64,000 nucleotides of DNA from contig CANMRT010000003.1 of the NCBI GenBank assembly GCA_947500415.1, forward strand, positions 62,001 to 126,000. Direction: 5' to 3'. Both the position numbers and the translations under genes were made by a program. The DNA is from an uncultured Roseicyclus sp. GTDB lineage: Bacteria > Pseudomonadota > Alphaproteobacteria > Rhodobacterales > Rhodobacteraceae. Position 1 is the first letter of the stretch. Each line of letters begins with the position of its first letter. Below the pieces are notes generated by a model. It was not told where the DNA came from. It saw only the letters and a list, made by a program, of their open reading frames with translations, and made no database searches. Positions 2,696-50,540 of this stretch are shown in pieces.

Positions 2696-3510
2696 CCCAC
2701 AGGCCCCCCGACCGTTTCAACACCTCCGCCGGCACCGTCGCCGCAACCCGCATCGGCTCGGGCCCGCCGCTTGTGCTGGCCCACGGTTGGCCGTGGTCGT
2801 CTCACAGTTGGTCACGCGTCGTCCCGCACCTCAGCCAGCATTTCACGTGTCACCTCTACGATATGCCGGGGTTCGGCCAGTCCGACAAAACCGGCTCAAG
2901 GCCGATGTCGCTTGACACGCAAGGCGAAGTCTTTGGCGAGATGCTGAACCATTGGAACCTCAAGGAACCCGCCGTCATCGCCCACGATTTCGGCGGTGCG
3001 GTCACTTTGCGTGCCCATATCCTTCACGGGCGACGGTATTCTGCGTGGGTTTTGATGAACGTCGTCGCCATGCGCCCATGGGGTTCGGGCTTTTTCGACC
3101 ATGTGGGCCGTCACACAGACGCATTTCTCGGCGTCCCGCCCCATATCCACGAAGCCATCGTCCGCGCCTATATCCATGGCGCCCTCATCCGCGACCTCCC
3201 CTCTGAGGACATCGAAGCGCTCGTCACCCCGTGGCTTGGACCCGAGGGGCAGGCCGCCTTCTACGCTCAATTCGCCCTCGCCGACGAACGCTTCACGGCA
3301 GACGTCGAAAACGGCTTCGCGTGTCTTGATCCCAAACCCGCAATCCTTTGGGGTGCCGACGACCCATGGATCCCGCTGGACCGTGGCCACGCATTGGCGG
3401 AACTGGTGGGTGTGCCGTTGACAGAACTGGCAGGATTGGGCCACCTGCCTCAACTCGAAGATCCGACCCGGGTCGCCACAGCACTTCTGTCTGCCCTCAA
3501 GGCCCATTGA
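2692..3510 (+). CDS. Alpha/beta hydrolase, haloalkane dehalogenase/epoxide hydrolase-like
   Basis: The 272-residue protein has the alpha/beta-hydrolase fold: oxyanion motif HGWPWSSHSW (about 31-40), nucleophile elbow HDFGG with Asp99 as nucleophile, acidic residue in GADDPW (223/224) and catalytic His251 in GLGHLP. An Asp nucleophile fits the dehalogenase/epoxide hydrolase/fluoroacetate dehalogenase branch rather than Ser esterases. It lies inside the transporter operon, overlapping the small membrane gene by 4 bp and the permease by 1 bp. That places it with uptake of a nitrogen compound, but its substrate is unknown. Confidence 0.85.
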   Translation: MTHRPPDRFNTSAGTVAATRIGSGPPLVLAHGWPWSSHSWSRVVPHLSQHFTCHLYDMPGFGQSDKTGSRPMSLDTQGEVFGEMLNHWNLKEPAVIAHDFGGAVTLRAHILHGRRYSAWVLMNVVAMRPWGSGFFDHVGRHTDAFLGVPPHIHEAIVRAYIHGALIRDLPSEDIEALVTPWLGPEGQAAFYAQFALADERFTADVENGFACLDPKPAILWGADDPWIPLDRGHALAELVGVPLTELAGLGHLPQLEDPTRVATALLSALKAH

Positions 3511-29261: not shown

Positions 29262-29339
29262 CGGAGCCGGCCCTACAAGCTTGCGCCGTGCCGCACCCGA
29301 TGCAACGTTTTGGGCAGCTCAAGTACAAGGAACCAGCCC

Positions 29340-29723
29340 ATGAAACGCGCCATTGCCCTTACCTTCGCTATGGGGGCAGCGCTGCCTGCCACCGCAGAAA
29401 CCCTGCCGCAATCCGGCCAGTGTTTGTCTCCGGCAAGCGGATACATATTCGACAGCGTGTCTTGGTCACCGACAGGGGCAGAGATGGACTATCTGGGCCA
29501 AATCGTTCCTGCCGAGGTCCGCGGCCTGCGCGCCCATGACGACGGCTTCCGTCTGTCCATTTTCGCCAATCATCCCATCGTCGGCGCGATGGAAGTGGCG
29601 ATTTTCTACCTGCCGGATCGCGACGAGCCACGCATCGCCGCCGCGTCCTACGAACAAAGCGAAGATGGCCGCGTCCTGTCCTATGTCACAGGATATGAAT
29701 TCACGAGCTGCACCTTCGATTAG
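29340..29723 (+). CDS. Secreted hypothetical protein
   Basis: A 127-residue protein with a signal peptide (MKRAIALTFAMGAALPATA) and two cysteines near either end of the mature chain (SGQC and TSCTFD) that could be disulfide-bonded. AAGGA precedes ATG 29340. It is transcribed away from the LacI-controlled operon and shares its promoter region. No family was recognised. Confidence 0.65.
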   Translation: MKRAIALTFAMGAALPATAETLPQSGQCLSPASGYIFDSVSWSPTGAEMDYLGQIVPAEVRGLRAHDDGFRLSIFANHPIVGAMEVAIFYLPDRDEPRIAAASYEQSEDGRVLSYVTGYEFTSCTFD

Positions 29724-29754
29724 CGCATCGCCGCTTTGCTACGAAACGAATGTC

Positions 29755-30726
29755 TCAGTTCAGCTGTTCGCGCAGCCAGTTCGTGATGTCTTCCACCGCC
29801 CGATCCGTTAGCGCAGGGCTTAGAATATCACCCGCAATCACGTGGTGGAACGGATCGCCGCCCTCTTCCGGAACGGCCACCGGAAGAACCGTGGCCTCGC
29901 CCCCCCACCCTTCGGCGAAGTCACGCGCGGCCGGGGCCGAAATCACCTGATCGGTGTCGGCAAACATGAACAAGGCGGGGATCGAGACGCCAGAATAATC
30001 CCGCGCCCGCGCCTCGCGCAGAAGCGTGCCCATCGAAACGGCAGCGACCGTCGGGTATTGCGTCGTCCAATAGGTCCCGTGGCCCTCGTTGATCGGCTCA
30101 AAGCTGCGCTCCGCCCCTGCGACCCACGGCACCCAGATGCGCGCACCGGCCAGTTCCAGAAGCGGACCGGCAGGGTTTGCGACCTCGATATTCGGCGAGA
30201 TCATGACAACCGCGGCCACGGCCTCAGAAGGTTCCGGCTCGGTCAGGACATAAGCGGCCAATGTGGCCCCCGTCGACGTTCCCATGACCACGACCCGGTC
30301 GCCCACGGCGCGCGCGATCTGCAGGAATAACTCCGCATCAGCCACCCAATCACCCGCCCGCGCCTCACCCAGGGCGGACCCGCTCCGCCCGTGGCCGGTC
30401 AGCCGCGCAAAGACCAGGTTCGCACCCAATTGTTCGGCCACCCGGTCCGGCACCGGCCGGATTTCCTCGGACGTGGCTGAGAAGCCGTGCAGGTAAAGAA
30501 CCACAGTCTCGGTCGCTGCGCCCTCCTCGCCAGCCCAGATGATCCGCGCCTCGGTACCCGGCGTGATGTCATCGGCGGTCTCACGCGCGGCCAGATAACC
30601 TGCGGGATCACTGAATTGCGCGGTCGCCTCACGCTCGATCCGTTCGCCTGGCGCAAAGATCACAACCGCCAGCACCACGCCAACCAGGATCAGGATTCGA
30701 CCCAACCACTTTCCCAAACTACGCAT
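29755..30726 (-). CDS. Alpha/beta hydrolase with N-terminal membrane anchor
   Basis: A 323-residue hydrolase. Residues 7-25 form a hydrophobic anchor or signal sequence, then YLHGFSATSEE (oxyanion region), GTSTGA with the Ser nucleophile, and a late His in PFHHVIAG. The LTGHGRSG motif resembles lysophospholipases and carboxylesterases. It overlaps the upstream hydrolase gene by 8 bp, so both are made from one mRNA. Confidence 0.83.
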   Translation of the reverse strand: MRSLGKWLGRILILVGVVLAVVIFAPGERIEREATAQFSDPAGYLAARETADDITPGTEARIIWAGEEGAATETVVLYLHGFSATSEEIRPVPDRVAEQLGANLVFARLTGHGRSGSALGEARAGDWVADAELFLQIARAVGDRVVVMGTSTGATLAAYVLTEPEPSEAVAAVVMISPNIEVANPAGPLLELAGARIWVPWVAGAERSFEPINEGHGTYWTTQYPTVAAVSMGTLLREARARDYSGVSIPALFMFADTDQVISAPAARDFAEGWGGEATVLPVAVPEEGGDPFHHVIAGDILSPALTDRAVEDITNWLREQLN

Positions 30727-39793: not shown

Positions 39794-40474
39794 TCAGAAC
39801 TGCAATCTCAGGCCAACCGCCAATTCATGGCTGTTGATCGGCCCAAACGCTTGTTCCACGGCGCCTCCCGCGATGTTGAAACCGTTGAAACCTTGTTCGT
39901 TCACCCGGAAAAACGTGTAATCCGCAAAGACGCTCATGCCATTGGACAGCCCGCGTTCCACGCCAACGCGCACCTGGCTGGCAAGGCCCGTATAGGCCCC
40001 GTTCACAACCGCACCCGAGTCGCTGGCCAGATCAACATCCACCTCCGCAACGCCCAAACCGCCACCCACATAGGCAACATACTCCGTTGCGCCCAAAGGG
40101 ATGTCATAAAGCCCGTTCACCTTCAGCGAGGACACCGTAACACCGCCGTTCGAATTGAGCACCGACGGGCCGGTTCCGAACTCAAACGTGTCGTCATACT
40201 GCAGGCTGCGATACGAATATTCAGCCTCAGCGCGGAAAGAGGACCCCAATTGCCCCCCAACGGCGATCCGCATCAATCCTGACGTATCAAAGTCGCCACT
40301 GACGCCGTTAGTGGCGTCCGATGAGCCTACAAAATCACCGTGCACGGATGCGCCCAAGGCACCTGAGAAATACAGACCCAAACCAGATACACTGTCCTGC
40401 GCCAGTGCGGTTTGAGATAGCAGCAACAGCGCCACAACGCCGCCGGACAATCTTTTGGTGACAGACCTGAACAT
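39794..40474 (-). CDS. Outer-membrane beta-barrel protein, opacity-like
   Basis: A 226-residue protein with a signal peptide (cleavage after QTALAQ, about residue 25) and alternating polar/hydrophobic strands (AEAEYSYRSLQYDD, VNGLYDIPL, YVGGGLGVAEVDV) ending in the C-terminal aromatic LRLQF recognised by the BAM machinery. The pattern fits an eight-stranded OmpA/Opa-type porin-like barrel. It lacks a peptidoglycan-binding domain. The start at 40474 was chosen over 40507 by signal-peptide fit. Confidence 0.82.
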   Translation of the reverse strand: MFRSVTKRLSGGVVALLLLSQTALAQDSVSGLGLYFSGALGASVHGDFVGSSDATNGVSGDFDTSGLMRIAVGGQLGSSFRAEAEYSYRSLQYDDTFEFGTGPSVLNSNGGVTVSSLKVNGLYDIPLGATEYVAYVGGGLGVAEVDVDLASDSGAVVNGAYTGLASQVRVGVERGLSNGMSVFADYTFFRVNEQGFNGFNIAGGAVEQAFGPINSHELAVGLRLQF

Positions 40475-40617
40475 CGCGCTCAAACCTCTAGAAAACTGAT
40501 TTCCCACAGCTTAACGCCGCCCGCGCGACGTGACGAGCATTGCGGCCCCACCCCGGCGCAAAGTGGCTGGACGTGATATTTTTGCAAAACAGCCCGCCCC
40601 GCATGCCTAAAGCGCAA

Positions 40618-40783
40618 GCCGTGCCATCGCCGGACCGGGGTTTGGCGAGACGACAGACCCGAATTGGCAGTTTATGGCAGCCAAGCAATCGAACCTAACA
40701 ACCGGAGCGCCAAGCTCCACCAAATCGCCAGACCGCGGGACGGTCCGGCGATGGCACGGCGGCCTACGGCCTTGTTCCGTGCC
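40618..40783. repeat. Long multi-hairpin palindromic element, copy A
   Basis: A 166 bp element in the 374 bp non-coding gap 40475-40848. A perfect 19 bp inverted repeat (40618-40636 with 40742-40760) frames it. Inside are hairpins TCGCC/GGCGA (40627-40648), GGAGC/GCTCC (near 40704-40718), TCGCC-GACC/GGTC-GGCGA (40725-40751) and GGCACGG/CCGTGCC with an inner GGCC/GGCC (40753-40783). The same structure with different bases recurs at 49029-49192. The remaining gap sequence (40475-40617, 40784-40848) shows no gene. Confidence 0.8.
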
Positions 40784-40848
40784 TTTGTGCTGCAACTAGA
40801 GAGGCACCTCAACAAGCCCAGGTGCTGTATCGGTACTATGACCGGAAA

Positions 40849-41529
40849 CTACTCAAGCGCTGCATTGACCGAGTTTGTAGCAATATCCAATAGCTCACAA
40901 ACCGTACTCCTCAATGCCTCAAAGGAATCATCACCTTCATTGTGGAATGCCCTGATTTCGATCCTATTGTCGCGCAGTTGGAAATAACGGTCCATCAGGG
41001 CAGATGCACTAACATGCGTCTGATCACAAAGAGCGTGATAGACGCCCTCATAGTCAGCCTCGCCACCGGCTCGCTCAAACCGCTGCATAATTTTCAAACT
41101 TTCAGCGCCACTCGCCTTGAGAGCTGCGATCTCGTTTTCAGTAGTCTCAATGTGCTCTGCGAGGTCTTTCATCTCGCCTATCATCGCGAAGTATGGATTA
41201 CCATCACGAGCGCGAGTCAGCTTTCTCAGCTTGTTTTCCTCAGATCGCAGTCGAAAACATTGAACATGCGTTCGGTCGTCACCAATGAGTTTCAGTTCTA
41301 TTACAATCTCATAAAGCTGTCGAAGCAACGCGTAGGCCTGAACCTTCAATCCGTATTTTGCGACCACGACCACGGCAAAGGCACTTTCAAGTGCGGCCAT
41401 ATACAAACTTACCGGTACATTGTGCTCCCAGCAAGTTGCATCAAACCTCAGCTCTTTCGCATCTGGAATGAGCTGGTCCAAAATTTGACACTCGACTTCC
41501 TCTAGTGAAAGAATCTTACCGCTACTCAT
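40849..41529 (-). CDS. DUF5677-like protein of unknown function
   Basis: A 226-residue, mainly helical protein with the layout of DUF5677-type proteins: a central KVQAYALLRQLYEIVIELKL helix, a coiled middle (about 110-150), and YHALCDQTHVSASALMDRY near the end. G+C and codon use look lower than in the genes around it, which together with the adjoining element A suggests transfer from elsewhere. No partner gene of a defence module was seen beside it. Confidence 0.65.
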   Translation of the reverse strand: MSSGKILSLEEVECQILDQLIPDAKELRFDATCWEHNVPVSLYMAALESAFAVVVVAKYGLKVQAYALLRQLYEIVIELKLIGDDRTHVQCFRLRSEENKLRKLTRARDGNPYFAMIGEMKDLAEHIETTENEIAALKASGAESLKIMQRFERAGGEADYEGVYHALCDQTHVSASALMDRYFQLRDNRIEIRAFHNEGDDSFEALRSTVCELLDIATNSVNAALE

Positions 41530-41607
41530 TCCCTAACAAGCCCTTAACAAAAACCTCTTCCCCCAACAAACCAACCCCTTAACCCGCTTGCTCAACCTTG
41601 AGCAGCC

Positions 41608-42513
41608 TCACCCAAACACCGCCTCAAACTCCCGCCATTCGCCCATGCTCATCCCCGAGCTCTCCTGCGTCACGGCCTCACCCGCCAGCCGCCGTTTCAG
41701 CACCTCGACGCCCTTCCCAGACAGCTGCACGCCCCCCATCCGGTAATCCTCGAACGCCCCATAGGCCGCGGGCACCCAGTCCTTCACCATCTCGGCAATC
41801 GCATCCGCATAGACCCGGATTTCGTACTGCGCATGCGCGTCTGCCCGCAGCCGCAGGAAGTGGAACAGGTTGTGCAGATCCACCTTCCAATACCATTGCG
41901 TGTAGACATTCGCGGGCAGGTTCATCCGCGCCAATTCGCGAGCCAAGCCCTTCTGGCCGTCCTGAGACAACATCTCCTCATAGTGATCATATGCCCGGCC
42001 CGCATCGTCCTTCAGAACCCGCAGAACCCGCTCGGCCTCCTCGCCCTCCAACGTCTCACCGCGCCCCTGATTGTTCACCACCGACTGCGCCGCCAATGCG
42101 TCCGGCTCGGGGATGTAAAACTCCCGGTCCAAAATCGAATACCGCGCCGAGTATTCGTTCACATTCGCCGTGCGGTGCCGGATCCACTGCCGCGCGACAA
42201 AGACTGGCAGCTTCACATGCAGCTTGATCTCGCACATCTCGAACGGCGTCGAATGCCAGTGCCGCATCAGGTAGCGGATCAAACCGCTGTCATCGCGCGC
42301 CTTTTTCGTGCCCGCCCCGTAGGATACCCGCGCCGCCTGCACAATCGCCGCATCATCGCCCATGTAATCCACGACCCGCACAAAGCCGTGGTCCAGCACG
42401 GGCTTCGCCTCATAGAGGTGCTTTTCCATACCCGGCGCCACGGCGCGCAAGGTCGGTTGCGGGTTGGAGCGGGCAGACTGGATATCCTCCAGTTGTTCAG
42501 GCGTCAGCGGCAT
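41608..42513 (-). CDS. thyX: FAD-dependent thymidylate synthase ThyX
   Basis: A 301-residue flavoenzyme that makes dTMP from dUMP using methylenetetrahydrofolate and NADPH. The signature RHR-x7-S is at Arg112-His113-Arg114 to Ser122 ([11 protein letters not shown]), and the nucleotide-binding [12 protein letters not shown] and [15 protein letters not shown] motifs are present. It is longer than many ThyX because of an N-terminal extension typical of alphaproteobacteria. ATG 42513 was chosen; an earlier in-frame start at 42588 lacks support. Confidence 0.95.
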
Positions 42514-42602
42514 GGCATGGGTCCTCAAGGAATCGGTGGATCGGCGGCGTGAGGCCACATATTGCCCCAGCGCGCCCACAGACCGCAAGAAGTTGAGGGA
42601 TC

Positions 42603-43445
42603 ATGGCGGCATTAAGCGTGGCCAATCTGGAACGGCGGCTGGCAGATCACCCCTCCGCGTGGCGGCTAACGGGCGTGATCCTGGCGAAAGTGGCCTATTC
42701 CGCGCTGTTCGGCATCCTGATCCTGACCGCCCTCATCCTGACCCGCCTGATCTGGCAAGAGGACTGGCCGCTCGCCCGTTACGACGCGCTGGTGATCTTC
42801 GCGGTGGTTACCCAAACTCTCTTCATCTGGCGCGGGTTGGAGACGTGGGAGGAGGCGAAAGTCATCCTCATTTTCCACATCACCGGCACCGTCATGGAGA
42901 TCTTCAAACTCGCTCAAGGCTCCTGGGATTACCCCGATCAAGGTATCTTGGAAATCGGCGGCGTGCCCCTTTTCTCAGGCTTTATGTATGCCTCTGTCGG
43001 CAGCTTCATCGCTCGCGCGATCCGCATCTTCCACATCCAGTTCGCGCCCTACCCGGCCTTTTGGATGACCTACCTTCTGGCCCTCGCGATCTACGTGAAT
43101 TTCTACACCCACCACTACACTTACGACATCCGATGGGTCCTTTTTGCGGCGACCCTGATCCTCTTCTGGCGCACTCGCATCTGGTTCTATCCGGCCACCA
43201 AACCTTTCGCGATCCGCCTGCCAATCGGGGCACTTCTGTCGGCCTGGCTTCTGTGGGTTGCGGAGAACATCGGCACTTTCACCAGAACGTGGACCTACGA
43301 GACGCAGGGCGACACCGGCCTTGTCGACATCAGCAAATTCGGATCATGGTATCTGCTGCTGTTCGTGGCCTTCGTCACCGTCACTCTTGTGGTGCGTGAC
43401 GCCATGCATCCTAGGCCGATCCAGCCGGGCGCACGGGAAATTTAA
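42603..43445 (+). CDS. DUF817-family membrane protein
   Basis: A 280-residue integral membrane protein with about eight helices. It has the DUF817 pattern GLETWEEAKVILIFHITGT, KLAQGSWDYPD, and FGSWYLLLFV near the end. The family is uncharacterised; E. coli YoaT is a member. Divergent from thyX with 89 bp between. Confidence 0.83.
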   Translation: MAALSVANLERRLADHPSAWRLTGVILAKVAYSALFGILILTALILTRLIWQEDWPLARYDALVIFAVVTQTLFIWRGLETWEEAKVILIFHITGTVMEIFKLAQGSWDYPDQGILEIGGVPLFSGFMYASVGSFIARAIRIFHIQFAPYPAFWMTYLLALAIYVNFYTHHYTYDIRWVLFAATLILFWRTRIWFYPATKPFAIRLPIGALLSAWLLWVAENIGTFTRTWTYETQGDTGLVDISKFGSWYLLLFVAFVTVTLVVRDAMHPRPIQPGAREI

Positions 43446-43518
43446 CGGGTCCGGGCTGGTCAACGGCCATTCCCGCGTTAAGCTGCCCGGAACACCAAAC
43501 ACGGGGAGCATGTGCCAA

Positions 43519-43947
43519 ATGGGCATCCAATACCTTCACACGATGGTCCGGGTGAAAGACCTCGACGCCTCCATCGCCTTCTACAAACTGCTGGGCCTGG
43601 AAGAGACGCGCCGCATCGACAGCGAGGGCGGGCGCTTCACTTTGGTCTTCATGACACCGCCCGGTCAGGAAAACGCCCATGTCGAGCTGACCTACAATTG
43701 GGACGGCGACGAGGGCCTGCCGTCGGACAGCCGCCATTTCGGCCACCTCGCTTATCGCGTCGATAATATTTACGAGATGTGCCAGCACCTGATGGACAAT
43801 GGCGTCACGATCAACCGCCCGCCCCGTGACGGGCACATGGCCTTCGTGCGCTCGCCCGACAATGTGTCGATCGAGCTGCTACAGGCAGGCGACAGCCTCG
43901 AGGCTGCGGAACCCTGGGCCTCGATGGAAAACACGGGCCATTGGTAA
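43519..43947 (+). CDS. gloA: Lactoylglutathione lyase (glyoxalase I)
   Basis: A 142-residue glyoxalase I of the Ni2+-type bacterial length. All four metal ligands are present: His7, Glu56, His76 and Glu119. It converts the methylglyoxal-glutathione hemithioacetal to S-lactoylglutathione in the cytoplasm. ATG 43519 is spaced correctly from GGGGAG; ATG 43510 is too close to it. The stop is 26 bp before the next gene's GTG. Confidence 0.92.
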   Translation: MGIQYLHTMVRVKDLDASIAFYKLLGLEETRRIDSEGGRFTLVFMTPPGQENAHVELTYNWDGDEGLPSDSRHFGHLAYRVDNIYEMCQHLMDNGVTINRPPRDGHMAFVRSPDNVSIELLQAGDSLEAAEPWASMENTGHW

Positions 43948-43973
43948 GGCTCGGATCCCTATTGGCACCTTCG

Positions 43974-44702
43974 GTGAGGGGCCCCCTCCTCAGGCTGGCG
44001 GCTTGCGCCTCAGCCTTCCTCGCAGCTGCCCCGGCTTTGGCACAAGGCCAATGCCGCCTTGCGCTGCAACTGGGGATGGACGTTTCGGCCTCCGTCGATC
44101 AGGCCGAATATCGGCTGCAGGTCGAAGGCCTGGCCTCGGCCCTGCTGGACCCGACCGTCACAGAAGCCTTCCTGAACGGTCCCGGCCCGGTCGCCCTGTC
44201 GATCTTTGAATGGTCGGGCCGGTTCCAGCAGGACGTGCTTGTGGATTGGACCATGGTGACGACCGAGGCTGATCTTCTGGCCATCGCGGAACGCATCAAC
44301 CGCTCCATCCGCGGCAACCAGGATTTCCCGACGGCGCTTGGCTATGCGCTCGGCTTTGCCTCCACCCGGTTCCGCGAGGCCCCGGCTTGCCTGTTTCAAA
44401 CGCTCGATATCTCCGGCGACGGGCAGAACAACGACGGCTTCCCGCCTTCCGCCGCCTATGAACATTTCGACTTCGACGGCGTCACGGTAAACGGATTGGC
44501 CATCGGCGGCGCCTCCCGTGAGATCGAGGACTATTTCGCCGCAGAGGTCATCCACGGCCCCGGCGCCTTCGTGGAATATGCGTTGAACCACAACACCTTC
44601 GCCGAAGTCATGCGCCGCAAGCTGGAGCGGGAGTTGCGCGCGATGATCCTGGGTGAAGCTGTGATTACGGGCCGCACCTTGCCAGCGGTGTCGGTTTTTT
44701 GA
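43974..44702 (+). CDS. DUF1194 secreted von-Willebrand-factor-A-like protein
   Basis: A 242-residue protein with a signal peptide (cleavage after APALAQ) and the DUF1194 domain, a VWA-like fold with MIDAS-type DVSASVD at the start of the mature chain and ISGDGQNNDG later. It is common in Rhodobacteraceae, with no known function. The start is uncertain: GTG 43974 gives the cleanest signal peptide; TTG 43941 would overlap gloA. Confidence 0.8.
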   Translation: MRGPLLRLAACASAFLAAAPALAQGQCRLALQLGMDVSASVDQAEYRLQVEGLASALLDPTVTEAFLNGPGPVALSIFEWSGRFQQDVLVDWTMVTTEADLLAIAERINRSIRGNQDFPTALGYALGFASTRFREAPACLFQTLDISGDGQNNDGFPPSAAYEHFDFDGVTVNGLAIGGASREIEDYFAAEVIHGPGAFVEYALNHNTFAEVMRRKLERELRAMILGEAVITGRTLPAVSVF

Positions 44703-44730
44703 GGTGTATGGCCAAGATGAAGGAACGGAC
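44703..44730. repeat. Dispersed intergenic repeat, partial copy
   Basis: GTATGGCCAAGATGAAGGAACGG matches the AAGATGAAGGAGCGG end of the copies at 7341 and 16565. The GGGGGC palindrome half is absent. It fills the 50 bp gap between convergent genes. Confidence 0.55.
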
Positions 44731-44752
44731 GTGGGTGATCGCGCCGCCCCGC

Positions 44753-45106
44753 CTAGACCGGCAGCATTGCGGCGCCAACCCGACGCCCCTCGGCCAGCAG
44801 CACATTGTAGGTGCGGCAAGCGGCAGGCGAGGCCATGACCTCCAAGCCGATACCAGCAGTCTCCAGCGCATGACGGAAAGCAGCGGGCGCATGGGCGATC
44901 TCCGCACCAGTTCCGATCAGCAGGAAATCAACCTCACCGGCCTTGGCGATCACCGCATCCGCATCCTCGAACCCGGCCCATGCGGCGACCCCGCCGGGGC
45001 TGAGCAGCACCGCGCCCTGAACCACCTCGCCCCCCACGCGGAAGAAGCCCGGCCCGTAGCCATCGACCGGTCGGCTGTCATCGAACTGCACTTCATTCAT
45101 ACGCAT
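44753..45106 (-). CDS. Mth938/DUF498-like protein
   Basis: A 117-residue protein of the Mth938 (NDUFAF3-like) fold with VDGYGPGFFRVGGEVVQGAVLLSP and the conserved DFLLIGTGAEIA. The family sits beside secDF in many alphaproteobacteria, as here; the eukaryotic homologue is a complex I assembly factor. ATG 45106 has AAGGGTGA upstream. It begins 5 bp after the TSUP gene. Confidence 0.88.
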   Translation of the reverse strand: MRMNEVQFDDSRPVDGYGPGFFRVGGEVVQGAVLLSPGGVAAWAGFEDADAVIAKAGEVDFLLIGTGAEIAHAPAAFRHALETAGIGLEVMASPAACRTYNVLLAEGRRVGAAMLPV

Positions 45107-45111
45107 CGCAT

Positions 45112-45867
45112 TCACCCTTCCCAGATTGGCAGGCCCATCACCCCGGCGGCCCCAATCAGAATATAGGCCGCCGTTTTGTAAACACCCGCAGCCTCTGGCC
45201 GGAATAGGCGCGCGCCGGTCCATGTCCCCACGGCATAAGGGATCAGCAGCAGTGCGCCAAGCCAGACGGCTGGCCCATCAATCAGCCCCTGCAGCCAAAG
45301 CATCGGCATCATCAGAAGCGAGTTGAACGTCAGAAAACACGCGAGGTTGCCGCGTGTCACAGCGACGGATTGCTCCGAGCCGAGGTTGAACAGGATCACT
45401 GGCGGGCCGTTCAACCCCGTTGATCCGCCCGTGATCCCGCTCAGCGCGCCCACGGCGGCACGCAAACCGTTGCCGCCCTTCAAGGGCACTTTCCAGCCGG
45501 CCAACAGAACCGCCAGCGTTACAAGGGTCAGGATGCAAACGAAAGTGCGGATCGTCACCTCTGGCGTGAAACGCAAAAGCGCTATGCCAAGCGGCATCGT
45601 CACCAGCGACATGCCCACCATCAGCAGGGTCTGCGGCCGGTCTGCCACCTTCCACGCCTTCGGGATTACGGTGACAAGCGACGCCAAGGCAGACAGGGAA
45701 AAGGCGGCAATCGCCAGTGGCGGCGGCAGGAAAATGACGGCCAGCGGCATGAAGACAAGGGCCGAACCGAAACCCGCGAACCCATAGACCAAAGCCGCCA
45801 GGAAGGACGCTGCACATACCCAGACGAGGCCCGGCGTCGCCAGGGCCTCGATCAGGGCCTCAGGCAT
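45112..45867 (-). CDS. TSUP-family sulfite/anion exporter-like membrane protein
   Basis: A 251-residue protein with about eight helices and the two TSUP (TauE/SafE) motifs FAGFGSALVFMP and GGSTGLNGPPVILF, one in each half. The family moves sulfur-containing anions such as sulfite or sulfoacetate. It overlaps the secF stop by 8 bp, so it is in the secDF transcript; this position between secF and the Mth938-like gene is not universal. Confidence 0.87.
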   Translation of the reverse strand: MPEALIEALATPGLVWVCAASFLAALVYGFAGFGSALVFMPLAVIFLPPPLAIAAFSLSALASLVTVIPKAWKVADRPQTLLMVGMSLVTMPLGIALLRFTPEVTIRTFVCILTLVTLAVLLAGWKVPLKGGNGLRAAVGALSGITGGSTGLNGPPVILFNLGSEQSVAVTRGNLACFLTFNSLLMMPMLWLQGLIDGPAVWLGALLLIPYAVGTWTGARLFRPEAAGVYKTAAYILIGAAGVMGLPIWEG

Positions 45868-46840
45868 CGATATTGGCGAATTGCGTGCCCGACGCGCCGC
45901 CACCATCGGACGGCTTGGACCAGTCGCGTTTCACACCCAGCATCAGGACCACGTTCTTGGCCACGTAGATCGACGAGTACGTACCGACGATCACACCCCA
46001 AAGGATCGCGAAGACGAAGCCCCGGATCACGTCGCCGCCCAGAACCAGCAGGGCAATCAGCGCCAAGGCGGTGGTGCCGGAGGTCATCAAGGTCCGGCTC
46101 AGCGTTTCATTGGCGCTGAGGTTCATGACGTCCCGCAACGCGCGCTGCTTGTACTTGATCAGGTTCTCGCGCAGGCGGTCGAAGATCACCACGGTATCGT
46201 TGATTGAATAGCCCACGATGGTCAGAAGCGCCGCGATGGTGGCCAGATCAAAGCGGATCTGGAACAGGCTGAAGACGCCAATCGTCAGGATCACGTCATG
46301 GATCAGGGCCGCCACCGCGCCGACCGAGAACTGCCATTCGAACCGCAACCAGATGTAGACGAGGATCGCCCCGAGCGAGGCGAGAACCGCGATGATCGCC
46401 GTCTGGATCAGCTCACCCGACACCTTGGGACCAACGGATTCCACGGACGGAAAGGTCATCTCGCTGTCCACATTGGCCAGCAGTGCCGTTTCAATCGCTT
46501 CGATGGTCTCCGGCGTGACCGCCTCAACGCCTTCCTGCGCCTGAATGCGCACGGTGACGACGTATTGGTCCTCATCGAAATTCGGGTCGAACACGCGAGA
46601 GATCACCACATCGCCCAGGTCCAGATCCTCCAGCGCCGCGCGGTAGTCGGCCACATCGACCTCAACCGTCGCATCCGTACGGATCGTCGTGCCGCCCAGA
46701 AAGTCGATGCCGAAGTTCAGGCCGACCATCAGCCAGATCGCAATCGACGCGACCATGGCCAAGCAAGACGCGCCGAACGTGACCTTGGCGTATTTGAAGA
46801 AATCGAAGTTGGTTTCCTGCGGAACGAGACGAAGACGCAT
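45860..46840 (-). CDS. secF: Protein translocase subunit SecF
   Basis: A 326-residue inner-membrane protein of the SecDF complex, which uses the proton gradient to help proteins leave the Sec channel. It has six helices, a periplasmic domain after the first helix, and the SecF motifs FGIDFLGGTTIR and YSINDTVVIFDRLREN. It lies 3 bp after secD. Confidence 0.96.
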   Translation of the reverse strand: MRLRLVPQETNFDFFKYAKVTFGASCLAMVASIAIWLMVGLNFGIDFLGGTTIRTDATVEVDVADYRAALEDLDLGDVVISRVFDPNFDEDQYVVTVRIQAQEGVEAVTPETIEAIETALLANVDSEMTFPSVESVGPKVSGELIQTAIIAVLASLGAILVYIWLRFEWQFSVGAVAALIHDVILTIGVFSLFQIRFDLATIAALLTIVGYSINDTVVIFDRLRENLIKYKQRALRDVMNLSANETLSRTLMTSGTTALALIALLVLGGDVIRGFVFAILWGVIVGTYSSIYVAKNVVLMLGVKRDWSKPSDGGGASGTQFANIDA

Positions 46841-46843
46841 GGC

Positions 46844-48520
46844 TTAAACCTCGATTTTCTTTGGACGGCGGCGTTCAAACCAGAAAACGATCAAAAGCCG
46901 CGTGACATAGATCGCCGTGAAGACCGAGGTGACGATCCCGATCCCCAGCGTGACGGAGAAGCCGCGCACGGGGCCGGAGCCCAGCACGAACAGGATCGTG
47001 GCGATGATGAAGGTCGTGATGTTGGCGTCAATAATGGCCGATAGCGCGCGCTCATACCCCAACTCGATGGCCCGCGCGGGGCCCTTCGCCGTCTTCAACT
47101 CTTCCCGGATCCGCTCGAAGACCAGCACATTCGCGTCCACCGCCATACCGATGGTCAGCACGATCCCGGCAATGCCCGGCAGGGTCAGCGTGGCCCCGAT
47201 CAGCGAAAGCACCCCAAAGATCAATCCGACGTTCAGGACCAGCGCGATGCTCGCAAAGACGCCGAATGTGCCATAGGCGAGGATCATGAAGAGCAGCACG
47301 GCCGCAAACGCCACCATCGCCGCGATCTGCCCCGCCTCGATGCTATCCGCGCCTAGTTCTGGGCCGATGGTGCGTTCTTCCAGGAATGTCATCTCCGCAG
47401 GAAGCGCACCCGCCCGCAGCAAGATCGCCAGCTCGGTGGAGCTCTCCACCGTGAAGTTGCCGCTGATCTGGCCCGCGCCGCCCGTGATCGCCTGCCGGAT
47501 CACCGGGGCCGAGATCACCTCTCCATCCAGCACAATCGCGAAAGGCGCGCCCACATTGGCCGCCGTATATTCCCCAAATGCCCGCGCGCCCGATGGGTTG
47601 AAGCGGAACGTCACAACCGGCAGGCCGCTCTGCTGGTCAAACGACGGCTGGCTGTCCACCAGATCATCACCCGACACCACTGGCGTCTCTTCCAGAATGT
47701 AGAACGTACCCGCGTCATCGGGGTCGATGGAGGGCAGCACGATCTGGCGGCTCTCCACATCTTCGTCAGCCGTCGCCGCGCGCCCCACAACCGGGTGGAA
47801 CGTCAATCGCGCCGTCGTGCCGATCAGGTCTTTCAACTCCTGCGCCGAGCCAATCCCCGGCACCTGGATCAGAATACGGTCCGCACCCTGCCGCTGGATC
47901 GTCGGCTCCCGCGTGCCGGCCTCATCGACCCTCCGGCGCACAATCTCGATCGATTGCTGCATCGTCCGGTCATTGGTCGCCGCCGCCTCCGCATCGCTCA
48001 ACCGCACGGTAAGCACGTCGCCCGACCCGCTCACATCCAGCGTGCTCTCGCCAATGCCACCGGTCAGGCTGACCACCGGCTGCCCCAGCGCACGAACCGC
48101 CTCAAGGGCCGCGCTCATGCCCTCCGGCTGGCTGATCCGCACCTGCAACAGGCCGGGATCCGCATCAATCCGCCGGATCGTGCCCACCGTATCGCGCACC
48201 TCGCGCAGCGCATCGCGCACCTCCGGCCACAGCGCATCCATGCGCGCCACGTAGACATCCTCAACCCGCACTTCCGCCAGCAAATGCGCACCGCCCCGCA
48301 GGTCGAGACCAAGGTTCACCAAAGTCGCCGGAAGCGCCCCGGGCCAGAGCGCCTCTTCCGCCAAAAGCTCTTCCGTTTCAAGGCCTTCACGCTCCATCTC
48401 AGCCACGGCATCATTGTGCCGTTCCACCCGCTCGTAGAAGAAATTCGGGAAGGCAAAGCTCAACCCCGCCAGAATGACGAGAATGATGAACAGCCGGTTC
48501 CAGAGCGGGATCTGCAGCAT
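46844..48520 (-). CDS. secD: Protein translocase subunit SecD
   Basis: A 558-residue partner of SecF with the N-terminal LNLGLDLRGGAHLL motif, the large periplasmic domain (about 40-360), and five more C-terminal helices with GIVLTIGMAVDANVLVFERIRE. The length is normal for alphaproteobacterial SecD. It lies 59 bp after yajC in the conserved yajC-secD-secF order. Confidence 0.96.
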   Translation of the reverse strand: MLQIPLWNRLFIILVILAGLSFAFPNFFYERVERHNDAVAEMEREGLETEELLAEEALWPGALPATLVNLGLDLRGGAHLLAEVRVEDVYVARMDALWPEVRDALREVRDTVGTIRRIDADPGLLQVRISQPEGMSAALEAVRALGQPVVSLTGGIGESTLDVSGSGDVLTVRLSDAEAAATNDRTMQQSIEIVRRRVDEAGTREPTIQRQGADRILIQVPGIGSAQELKDLIGTTARLTFHPVVGRAATADEDVESRQIVLPSIDPDDAGTFYILEETPVVSGDDLVDSQPSFDQQSGLPVVTFRFNPSGARAFGEYTAANVGAPFAIVLDGEVISAPVIRQAITGGAGQISGNFTVESSTELAILLRAGALPAEMTFLEERTIGPELGADSIEAGQIAAMVAFAAVLLFMILAYGTFGVFASIALVLNVGLIFGVLSLIGATLTLPGIAGIVLTIGMAVDANVLVFERIREELKTAKGPARAIELGYERALSAIIDANITTFIIATILFVLGSGPVRGFSVTLGIGIVTSVFTAIYVTRLLIVFWFERRRPKKIEV

Positions 48521-48579
48521 TTAGGGACCTCGAAAGGAGGGGCGTGAACCGCCCGCTTCGTCGCGCCAAACGGCGCGGA

Positions 48580-48861
48580 TTAATCGTTTGCGGGTTCGGT
48601 CTTGGAGCGGACCTGCGCAATCGTCGGACGCAGCACCCGGATGCGCACATCCTTGGCAATCTCGACCTCAACCTCGGTGTCGTCCTTCACCTTGGTGATC
48701 TTGCCAATGAGCCCGCCCTGCGTGACCACCTCGTCGCCCCGACGCAGCGCTTCAACCATCGCCTGATGCTCTTTCACCTTCTTTTGCTGAGGGCGGATCA
48801 GGAAGAAATACATGATCACGAGGATCAGGATCAGCGGGATCACCTGGCCGAAGGCTTCCAT
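48580..48861 (-). CDS. yajC: Sec translocase accessory subunit YajC
   Basis: A 93-residue single-pass membrane protein: the helix (QVIPLILILVIMYFFLI) is followed by RPQQKKVKEHQAMVEALRRGDEV and a small cytoplasmic beta domain (VVTQGGLIGKITKVKDD). It associates with SecDF. First gene of the operon; its promoter should lie between 48862 and about 49000. Confidence 0.95.
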   Translation of the reverse strand: MEAFGQVIPLILILVIMYFFLIRPQQKKVKEHQAMVEALRRGDEVVTQGGLIGKITKVKDDTEVEVEIAKDVRIRVLRPTIAQVRSKTEPAND

Positions 48862-49028
48862 GGGCTTTGGTCCTTTGTTCGTTGGGTCCGGCGGGCCTAT
48901 GCGCGCCTCAAGTCAAAATTTGCGGCACCCTAGTTGTGCGGGGGGCGGAGTGCAACGGGTGCTAGAGGGGCAGATGGGCGCGGAGGCAGTGGGGTGCAAG
49001 GCGTGACGGGCATATCACTGCCATGAGC

Positions 49029-49192
49029 GCCGCTATCGACGGGCCGGGGACTGTCGATCCGCGGTCAATTGCAGCCACTTGATGCCAGCGAAGACGCTAT
49101 TCTGCTAGTTTGGGGTGCCCCGCCCTACCAAATCGACAGGCCGCCGGACGGCCCGTCGATGGCGGGGCGGGCAAGCCCGCTGTTAACCCGCC
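49029..49192. repeat. Long multi-hairpin palindromic element, copy B
   Basis: A 164 bp element in the 386 bp gene-free stretch 48862-49247. Arms ATCGACGGGCC (49035-49045) and GGCCCGTCGAT (49150-49160) pair over a distance. Local hairpins are ATCGAC/GTCGAT (49035-49058), GGGG/CCCC (near 49113-49122), ATCGAC-GGCC/GGCC-GTCGAT (49132-49160) and GGCGGG/CCCGCC (49161-49192) with an inner GCGGGC/GCCCGC. It aligns with element A (40618), with paired base changes. The rest of the gap holds only the likely yajC promoter region. Confidence 0.8.
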
Positions 49193-49247: not shown

Positions 49248-50540
49248 ATGACCGAGACAACAACCCTTCCCATCCCGCCCGACACGCTCCTGATCCTCGC
49301 GGCCTTCTTCGGCCTCGTCGTGTTCAGCTACGTTATTTTCCTTATCCTGCCCGATGACCGCGACCCCAGACGCGGCAACCCGCTGACCCGCGTGAACGAT
49401 AGCCTTGGCTTCCGCGTCGAAAGCAAACTGACCGCCGCGTTCCTGTTTCTGCTGATGATGATCTACTTCGCCATCTTCGCATTCGCTGCCGTCATAGCCT
49501 TGCGCGCTTTAGGGGCCATCCTTTTCCTCCCCCTGCCCGAGGTCACCACGTCCAGCCAAAATCGCACTGGCCTCGCCTTCGGAACCCTCCTCGCCGCCAT
49601 CCTCGGCGCGCCCCTCATCGTCTGGCGCAGCTGGGTCGCCCGGAAGACAGCGGCCATCGCGGAGGAGAGCCTCTTCAACGACAAGATCAACGCAGCAGCG
49701 ACGGACTTGGCCGCACAACGGCAGGTGACGCAGTTGGTAAAGGACAAGGACGGCAACCAGACGATCCTCACCGAATGGGAAGACGACCTCGTAACCCGCG
49801 CTGCGGCGATTGACCGGCTGGAGGGGTTGGCGAAAGAGGCGATGGAACGTGACGACTATGCCCCAGCACAGCGCATTGCGCGAATGCTGTCAATTTATGT
49901 GCAAGAACTTAGCCGTCAAAACCCATCACAAGAACTTCCCGAGAACTCAAGCGAACCACAACTCAGTGCCTGGCTAAACCGACTCGGGCCAATTCGCACT
50001 GATATGGAACGAGCGGTACAGAGCCTCGGCGGGATAAACCTTGATGACGAGATTGCCATCGACGTCTTCGGCCCGAACAACATCGATCTAAGGAACTGCA
50101 ATTTGCAGGGTTTCGACCTAGAAAAGCAGAACCTCAGAGGAGCCGATTTTTTCAATTCAACGCTGCATGGAGCGAACTTGATCGCCGCAAAATTGCAAGC
50201 GGCTGACCTGTTTTCGACAGATCTGCGTGGCGCAGACTTAGAGGACGCCCAGATACAGGGCGCCGCCATTATCAAGACGAGACTTTCGGAGCACACCGAC
50301 CTAAATGGCGTCGACCTCAGAGGAGCCGCAGTTTGGGCAGCCGACCACAAATCGCTGTCGATGTTGGCGGCTCACAGCAAAGGAGCACTCCTTTTCAAAC
50401 GAAAAAGACCGACAGACTGGCTGGGTGACTGGGTCGAGATCGATGCGAACTTTTCATACAATGACCTCGTCACCCAATGGCGCGCTTGGGCCGCCACCCT
50501 CGACCCACCCGTAACCATCGCCCCCGACTATCGCCCGTAA
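49248..50540 (+). CDS. Membrane protein with C-terminal pentapeptide repeats
   Basis: A 430-residue protein. About three hydrophobic helices (12-35, 66-95 and 112-130) are followed by a charged helical region (about 135-265) and a right-handed pentapeptide-repeat segment (about 280-360; units such as [30 protein letters not shown]). The function is unknown; the layout recurs in Rhodobacteraceae. The second half is lower in G+C than the first. ATG 49248 was chosen because upstream in-frame sequence runs into element B. Confidence 0.75.

Follow-up and report, generated by a model that had tools for sequence, protein, structure and literature searches.

A dispersed, fold-conserved repeat of Roseobacter-type bacteria and its coincidence with the borders of one-gene slots

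The window analysed here, a stretch of 64,000 nt from an uncultured Roseicyclus sp. (contig CANMRT010000003.1, positions 62,001 to 126,000), carries two multi-hairpin elements, A and B, which are copies of a dispersed repeat of Roseobacter-type bacteria, conserved in its fold rather than its sequence, that we call alpha (Table 1). An earlier note on this DNA had described both elements and seen an accessory gene beside them but missed the main regularity, namely that alpha edges are the borders of one-gene slots whose cargo is exchanged. Much of its description holds: A and B can be aligned in full with moderate identity (77% mean column identity), and the stems and paired changes that it quoted are present in both. 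Element B is confirmed, with its start at 49027, 2 nt before the position first given (49029). The note had also placed a lower-G+C accessory gene beside both elements; this is correct for A (a 48% G+C gene) but not for B, where yajC has 58% and the pentapeptide-repeat gene 57.9% G+C, compared with 61.3% for the whole window.

Table 1. Elements A and B, their parts and their neighbours (positions in the window; R1 and R2 are the models used for alpha and beta, respectively)
Feature	Position	Strand	Evidence or remark
Alpha element A	40618..40783	+	R1 family member, 149.6 bits
A left arm	40620..40648	+	local hairpin or long-range partner of right arm
A right arm	40725..40758	+	adjoins nearly invariant CCAAATCG
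A 3′ tail hairpin	40753..40783	+	5′ strand can pair with left arm too
Alpha element B	49027..49192	+	R1 150.9 bits
B left arm	49029..49057	+	by alignment to A
B right arm	49133..49168	+	by alignment to A
B 3′ tail hairpin	49161..49192	+	from sequence and alignment
Slot A cargo: DUF5677 protein, 226 aa, 48% G+C	40849..41529	-	Pfam PF18928 E=1.8e-17
Beta at far edge of slot A, facing alpha	41521..41609	-	R2 match G000:C3:103521-103609(-)
thyX (Thy1), core gene, far side of slot A	41608..42588	-	Pfam PF02511 E=4.5e-58; beta after stop codon
Surface-antigen family gene, 5′ side of A	39794..40507	-	Pfam PF01617 E=1.2e-7
yajC, core gene, 5′ side of B	48580..48861	-	Pfam PF02699 E=2.9e-32
Pentapeptide-repeat gene, 3′ side of B	49248..50540	+	Pfam PF00805

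The fold of alpha was assessed in two alignments. The first, of 145 copies (<85% identity), was scanned for covariation without a guide structure (G statistic, average-product corrected), and the top of the scan is occupied by pairs of the long-range stem between the two arms (17-126, z=19.4; 28-110, z=16.9; 20-123, z=14.1), together with a local pair of the right arm (114-126, z=16.0) and pairs of the 3′ tail (137-162, z=12.3; 138-161, z=11.8). Column pairs that score highly without pairing exist too (152-159 in the tail, z=13.7), indicating that subfamilies add background to the scan. The second was an unfitted MAFFT alignment of 61 copies, made up of A, B and 59 further copies out of 118 candidates (L030, drawn among the 62 references, was excluded on account of a tail insertion). 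Here, the long-range arm pairing has 151 doubly changed cells, compared with 49.8±4.7 in shuffles; 19 of its 28 pairs are doubly changed, and 90.8% of its cells are paired vs 32-46% after a slide of one to three columns. The competing local hairpins (41 doubly changed cells vs 14.7 in shuffles) and the 3′ tail hairpin (51 vs 16.9) also covary, each of the three pairings lying above all 500 shuffles and the long-range one being best kept. The covarying long-range arm pair proposed in the earlier note thus ranks first in the unguided scan, and covariation, named beforehand as one point on which that proposal could fail, exceeds the background. As local and long-range pairings both covary, two mutually exclusive arm pairings exist, in keeping with the two alternative folds described for the first arm. 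Several positions where the two conflict have the local pair broken (110-130, 77% Watson-Crick) and the long-range pair held (28-110, 98%), although this precedence is not universal (13-130, 59%). The covariation shows that selection keeps alpha's single-strand fold.

A G-C pair may decay to G.T or to A.C, and the two products should be about equally common unless one folded strand is under selection. On the + strand, G.T cells outnumber A.C cells in the long-range stem (275 vs 57, with 146 of the 275 coming from two positions; by sign, 17 vs 7 positions) and in the left hairpin (204 vs 16), whereas the right local hairpin has the opposite bias (26 vs 92). This pattern favours selection on a folded + strand, be it RNA or single-stranded DNA, and is support rather than proof because the copies are related. 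A structured non-coding RNA had been proposed as one candidate, and alpha could be such an element, expressed from the + strand as a 3′ untranslated region element, mRNA stabiliser or small RNA, with its two folds acting as a switch. The conserved single-strand fold stands, and the + strand wobble asymmetry, the two maintained arm pairings and the position of the upstream gene, which is on alpha's strand in 130 cases and on the opposite strand in 72 (own gene caller), all agree with this explanation. However, searches of Rfam were negative, both for the window at gathering score and for four loci with own-genome copies at E≤1, the copy number is patchy (0 to at least 24 among genera), the flanks of different copies in one genome are rarely alike, the right local hairpin is biased the other way and folded single-stranded DNA fits the same pattern equally well. 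We consider an RNA function of this kind very unlikely.

DNA similarity within the window's own genome gave 8 matches with A as query and 11 with B, and R1, a covariance model built from ten own-genome copies of 165-168 nt each, gave 13 full-length forward matches there (52-162 bits; 10 strong and 3 weaker). R1 was positive in 20 of 41 relatives, including 13/13 genomes of the genus, and in 0/16 genomes from other families of the class; at E≤1e-6, 45 of the 120 family genomes searched, each from a different genus, had matches, with 1 to at least 24 copies apiece. The further copies anticipated in the earlier note therefore exist in the own genome and in relatives. A pattern scan of named GTDB genomes matched at least 80 loci, and the 80 listed belong to Rhodobacteraceae, Paracoccaceae and Rhodobacterales, among them the genera Sulfitobacter, Roseovarius, Roseinatronobacter, Jannaschia and Tateyamaria, plus one alphaproteobacterial metagenome-assembled genome. 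A single alpha used as query matched 0 phage records and, partially, 1 plasmid record.

Altogether, 221 model matches (105 + 116) were collected, of which 213 were used and 8 excluded as cut, partial or overlong. The length is 156-176 nt in 200 of the 213 copies, and by our own codon-usage gene caller, which is crude, 209 of them are intergenic, with 68 lying between convergent and 19 between divergent genes. The edges are sharp on both sides (RA|GCC..CCCGCY; 28 long-range pairs), and a target-site duplication is not evident, with a slight excess of direct flank matches of ≥5 nt (4.9% of 142 copies vs 2.5% in shuffles). Four copy-rich genomes from the pattern scan show mean within-genome identities of 84, 84, 84 and 75%, compared with 58-65% to the copies of the other three, a likeness that is possibly overstated because the loci were chosen by pattern; because copies are more alike within than between genomes, alpha appears to multiply as a unit inside its host genomes. 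Two or three alphas may follow one another in head-to-tail arrays, and in genome G010 a 252-bp unit enclosing alpha is present on two contigs at 94% identity (L100:3173-3422 is this larger duplicated unit). Dispersal, within-genome likeness, arrays and the duplicated unit in G010 all point to a mobile repeat, and alpha reads as a non-coding mobile repeat of Rhodobacteraceae/Roseobacteraceae resembling REPINs (hairpin-forming doublets of repetitive extragenic palindromes, REPs) or miniature inverted-repeat transposable elements (MITEs). Of the earlier note's two candidates, a mobile palindrome like REPs or bacterial interspersed mosaic elements is thus well supported in form, the copies being dispersed, intergenic inverted-doublet hairpins with some arrays. 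The RAYT-type transposase that might have accompanied it was not detected, as the Y1/RAYT family (PF01797) gave 0 matches in the own genome in a search that was positive in 5/14 control genomes. PF00589 integrases gave 12 matches there, 10 of them above cut-off.

Some copies depart from the common form. Alphas of ~207-213 nt with an extra ~45 nt are found at L076, L077, L093, L098, L106, L131, L132 and L137. In one copy-rich genome, an alpha (L201:2032-2198) is nested in another short inverted repeat (gccttttgcgg... / ...ccgcaaaaggc), and left flanks like that of L201 recur at L171, L199, L210, L231 and L235. Together with the G010 unit, the alpha inside another inverted repeat suggests a mosaic of palindromes.

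The flanks of alpha are asymmetric. Over 101 copies from the genus, G+C falls to 0.57 over ~0.8-1 kb on the 3′ side and is 0.61-0.63 on the 5′ side, many alphas of the genus adjoining a low-G+C insert of 0.7-1.8 kb. Across all genomes, 66 of 182 single copies have <0.56 G+C on exactly one side (49 at 3′, 17 at 5′, none on both), compared with a background in which 2.4% of 371 sampled windows have a low-G+C side. Flank comparison revealed that many orthologous alphas have just one flank in common, and that the break is close to the repeat itself: among 27 orthologous pairs in which the left flank and alpha are continuous, homology stops -1 to +15 nt from the 3′ edge in 22, and among 19 pairs sharing alpha and the right flank, homology begins -1 to +9 nt from the 5′ edge in 17. 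At site S1, six species retain the left gene and alpha as far as the 3′ edge of the repeat, beyond which come unrelated inserts of ~0.7-1.0 kb and then a common anchor; the insert differs in 6/6 alpha-bearing species. At site S3, unrelated inserts of 1.6-1.8 kb lie on alpha's 5′ side in 5/5 species, and homology starts at the 5′ edge. Alpha edges therefore coincide precisely with the borders of variable one-gene slots at several sites.

Slot A, the interval between element A and thyX, differs in 7/7 species, that of the window being unrelated to the 6 others. Its thyX side carries a second repeat, beta, in 7/7 genomes (partial in G009), and in eight slot A intervals the longest open reading frame (ORF) of each begins within ~100 bp of beta and reads toward alpha. 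In G010, slot A holds two cargos that are 88% identical, each followed by beta and the thyX 3′ end (L426, G010:C1:767700-773700; tandem units at 1958-2161 and 2926-3129). The extra thyX fragment resembles G000 (0.95) more than G010's own thyX (0.91), which marks this tandem cargo as left by recombination with a relative's DNA. In this order, such DNA could plausibly be carried by gene transfer agents.

At element B, the yajC side is matched in 13/13 genus genomes, the pentapeptide-repeat gene occurs in G005 without alpha, and homology to G001 ends 17 bp before B and returns only at 50455. The flanks in G005 and G001 are too diverged for a clean empty site at B to be resolved. Elsewhere, at window positions 29262-29767, these two collinear relatives have ~7.5 kb that is absent from the window.

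Beta, first found at the far edge of S3, is a repeat of ~85 nt consisting of a covarying hairpin (25 doubly changed cells vs 9.6) followed by GGGGTTAAG..GTTAAGGGTTTGTTAGGG. A search of 80 alpha loci with R2 gave 41 beta matches at E≤0.05, and in 26/26 matches at E≤1e-6 beta faces alpha, lying on its 3′ side in 15 cases and on its 5′ side in 11 (four of the latter at S3 and four weak ones at S1); 14 of the 26 trained R2, and the BLAST search that found them took both strands. Beta is thus a partner repeat facing alpha. It is itself abundant, with 28, 28 and 22 matches at E≤0.01 in G000, G008 and G005, respectively. On inspection of 20 betas, 13 had low G+C at once on the 3′ side (first 300 bp ≤0.55), and in 15 the alpha core motif was missing within 1.5 kb; three of the 15 belong to S3, where the distance to alpha is greater. 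A further short repeat, gamma (GGCGGGACTAGTCCCGCCCTACGG-like; L111 2932-3021), adjoins alpha on the 3′ side at S3 and also occurs close to several others.

The cargo is diverse, and some of it is defensive. Two S3 inserts are reverse transcriptases of the defence type, DRT8 (E=2e-145) and DRT2 (E=1e-120), and PADLOC returned strong matches for 5 of 20 hand-picked cargo proteins (DRT8, DRT2, TIR-TM, PDC-S32 (AbiJ_NTD4) and Shedu, the last in a Sulfitobacter genome). Among 30 cargo proteins, likewise hand-picked rather than random, 9 match Pfam at E≤0.001, 8 of them above the family cut-off (DUF5677, DUF4238, DUF4145, DUF433/MerR, TIR, DUF4274, Imm11 and AbiJ_NTD4) and AbiU2 below it. We collected 71 low-G+C neighbour ORFs, and likeness between different ones is rare.

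Single-gene cargo, a position beside gene ends, some tandem arrays and an imperfect palindrome with compensatory change are also what would be expected if alpha were an attC-like site of an integron gene-cassette system. However, the GTTRRRY motif (R box) is found near the 3′ end in 0/142 copies, cargo on alpha's 3′ side lies on either strand (24 same, 31 opposite), and alpha stays as the cargo changes, whereas attC travels with its gene. Identity with integron attC, which we regard as extremely improbable, is largely refuted by these three points; IntI was not searched by name. Another possibility is a so far undescribed gene-cassette system of Roseobacter-type bacteria, with alpha at one end and beta at the other, in which single genes, some of them anti-phage, would be inserted and exchanged by a putative enzyme between single-stranded attachment sites recognised by their fold; such a system, integron-like and not integron-derived, seems to us distinctly unlikely.

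On balance, we lean towards reading alpha as a REPIN-like mobile palindrome with a second role, that of marking, and perhaps making, landing pads for single accessory genes. Several observations weigh against this. Thirteen orthologous pairs are conserved across both alpha edges with no exchange, a low-G+C side is missing from 116 of the 182 single alphas, and beyond the genus the low-G+C effect is weak. The alpha of slot A is intact in 4/7 species (orthologous copies in G005, G008 and G009), degraded in 2 (G001 and G003) and undetected in G010. Comparisons of the window with G005 and G001 each give several alpha-free gaps of ≥300 bp, some of which are of similar lengths and normal G+C and perhaps just diverged genes. 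At the S1 anchor, G004 and G011 have low-G+C ORFs without alpha, G002 has ~60-100 bp between the genes, and G003, G006 and G012 have a normal-G+C gene, alike by eye and putatively sensor-kinase-like; alpha-free genomes with other ORFs at this site indicate that alpha is not required for turnover. Alpha-free variable sites and alphas lacking a low-G+C neighbour further indicate that alpha marks some variable sites, not all. An alignment is in any case prone to end at an alpha edge, because intergenic DNA lacks the conservation of alpha, and the orthologous pairs are not independent. Neither are the 26 betas, and the count of their direction covers these 26 of the 41 R2 matches; the four S1 betas are weak matches of 36-45 bits, situated past the left core gene instead of at a cargo edge.

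Some of these points would fit an alpha that is only a REPIN/MITE-like non-autonomous transposon landing harmlessly, with accessory genes gathering in the same permissive gene ends, so that the link between the two is indirect and the exchange of cargo is ordinary homologous recombination at hotspots. The intergenic and convergent bias, the within-genome likeness of copies, the non-homologous gaps without alpha, the 13 unexchanged pairs, the weak G+C effect outside the genus and the recombination footprint in G010 are all consistent with this explanation. Alone, however, it predicts neither the retention of alpha together with one flank, next to five or six different inserts whose borders fall at almost one and the same nucleotide, nor the orientation of beta towards alpha in all 26 cases, and we judge it rather unlikely.

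The two inverted, self-complementary arms of alpha close an interior of ~75 nt through the long-range stem, with the 3′ tail hairpin competing for the right arm. In the window's genus, alpha edges are often slot borders, and several sites show alpha and one flanking core region staying in place as the gene up to the next core DNA is exchanged, beta forming the other edge of the slot at some of them. Under the landing-pad view, relatives would trade cargo chiefly through homologous recombination within the conserved flanks, and one of the two repeats, alpha or beta, as folded single-stranded DNA, may fix the entry point of new cargo, either as a site for a recombinase or transposase or as a site of breakage at stalled replication. 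The folded repeat would in this way help to decide where genes enter.

It is poorly explained how single defence genes that carry no transposase or integrase come to find and share their positions in the chromosome, and alpha slots give a testable site for the step of cargo insertion. Finding the slot-bordering repeat by its fold also offers a direct route to a list of slots and their cargo in a large marine group; Pfam leaves 21/30 of the scanned cargo proteins without a match. Alpha, moreover, adds a family of mobile palindromes held together by compensatory change, not by sequence.

Among known repeats, the REPIN, a REP doublet that forms a hairpin, is similar in the part of its description used here (PMC3116915), being an inverted hairpin doublet with a spacer that forms a long single-strand hairpin, shows compensatory changes and is extragenic, dispersed and found in clusters. 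Alpha differs in its arms of ~28-34 nt, its unit of ~165 nt, the extra 3′ tail hairpin competing for one arm, the lack of a Y1/RAYT gene in its own genome and its frequent position at the edges of one-gene slots. The CGTC-tagged REPs are, like alpha, palindromic repeats of alphaproteobacteria without a dedicated transposase but are small single hairpins with 8-9 bp stems, and are set apart here by that description (PMC3733652, in part); in the main text of that paper, a text search for the names Rhodobacter, Roseobacter, Sulfitobacter, Ruegeria, Paracoccus and Jannaschia was negative. As outlined in the same source, bacterial MITEs (ERIC, NEMIS and RUP) are dispersed non-coding units of 70-300 bp with inverted terminal arms, and alpha agrees with them in each of these respects; unlike them, it has no evident target-site duplication, and its arms drift together by paired change. 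The portion of PMC6006769 covered contains none of three taxon words and does not describe the alpha repeat, and nor does that of PMC13386836. Neither the repeat nor its slots are described in any open-access title found, subscription papers and preprints being outside the scope of the search. Integron attC sites share with alpha the precedence of structure over sequence and the position beside single-gene cargo, and differ in having an R box and a cargo orientation rule and in moving with the cargo. In the minimal mobile elements of Neisseria, different genes occupy the space between the same two core genes in each strain and are exchanged by homologous recombination; we know of no fold-conserved repeat that marks their edges. 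Alpha slots resemble these elements in holding varying genes between fixed core genes.

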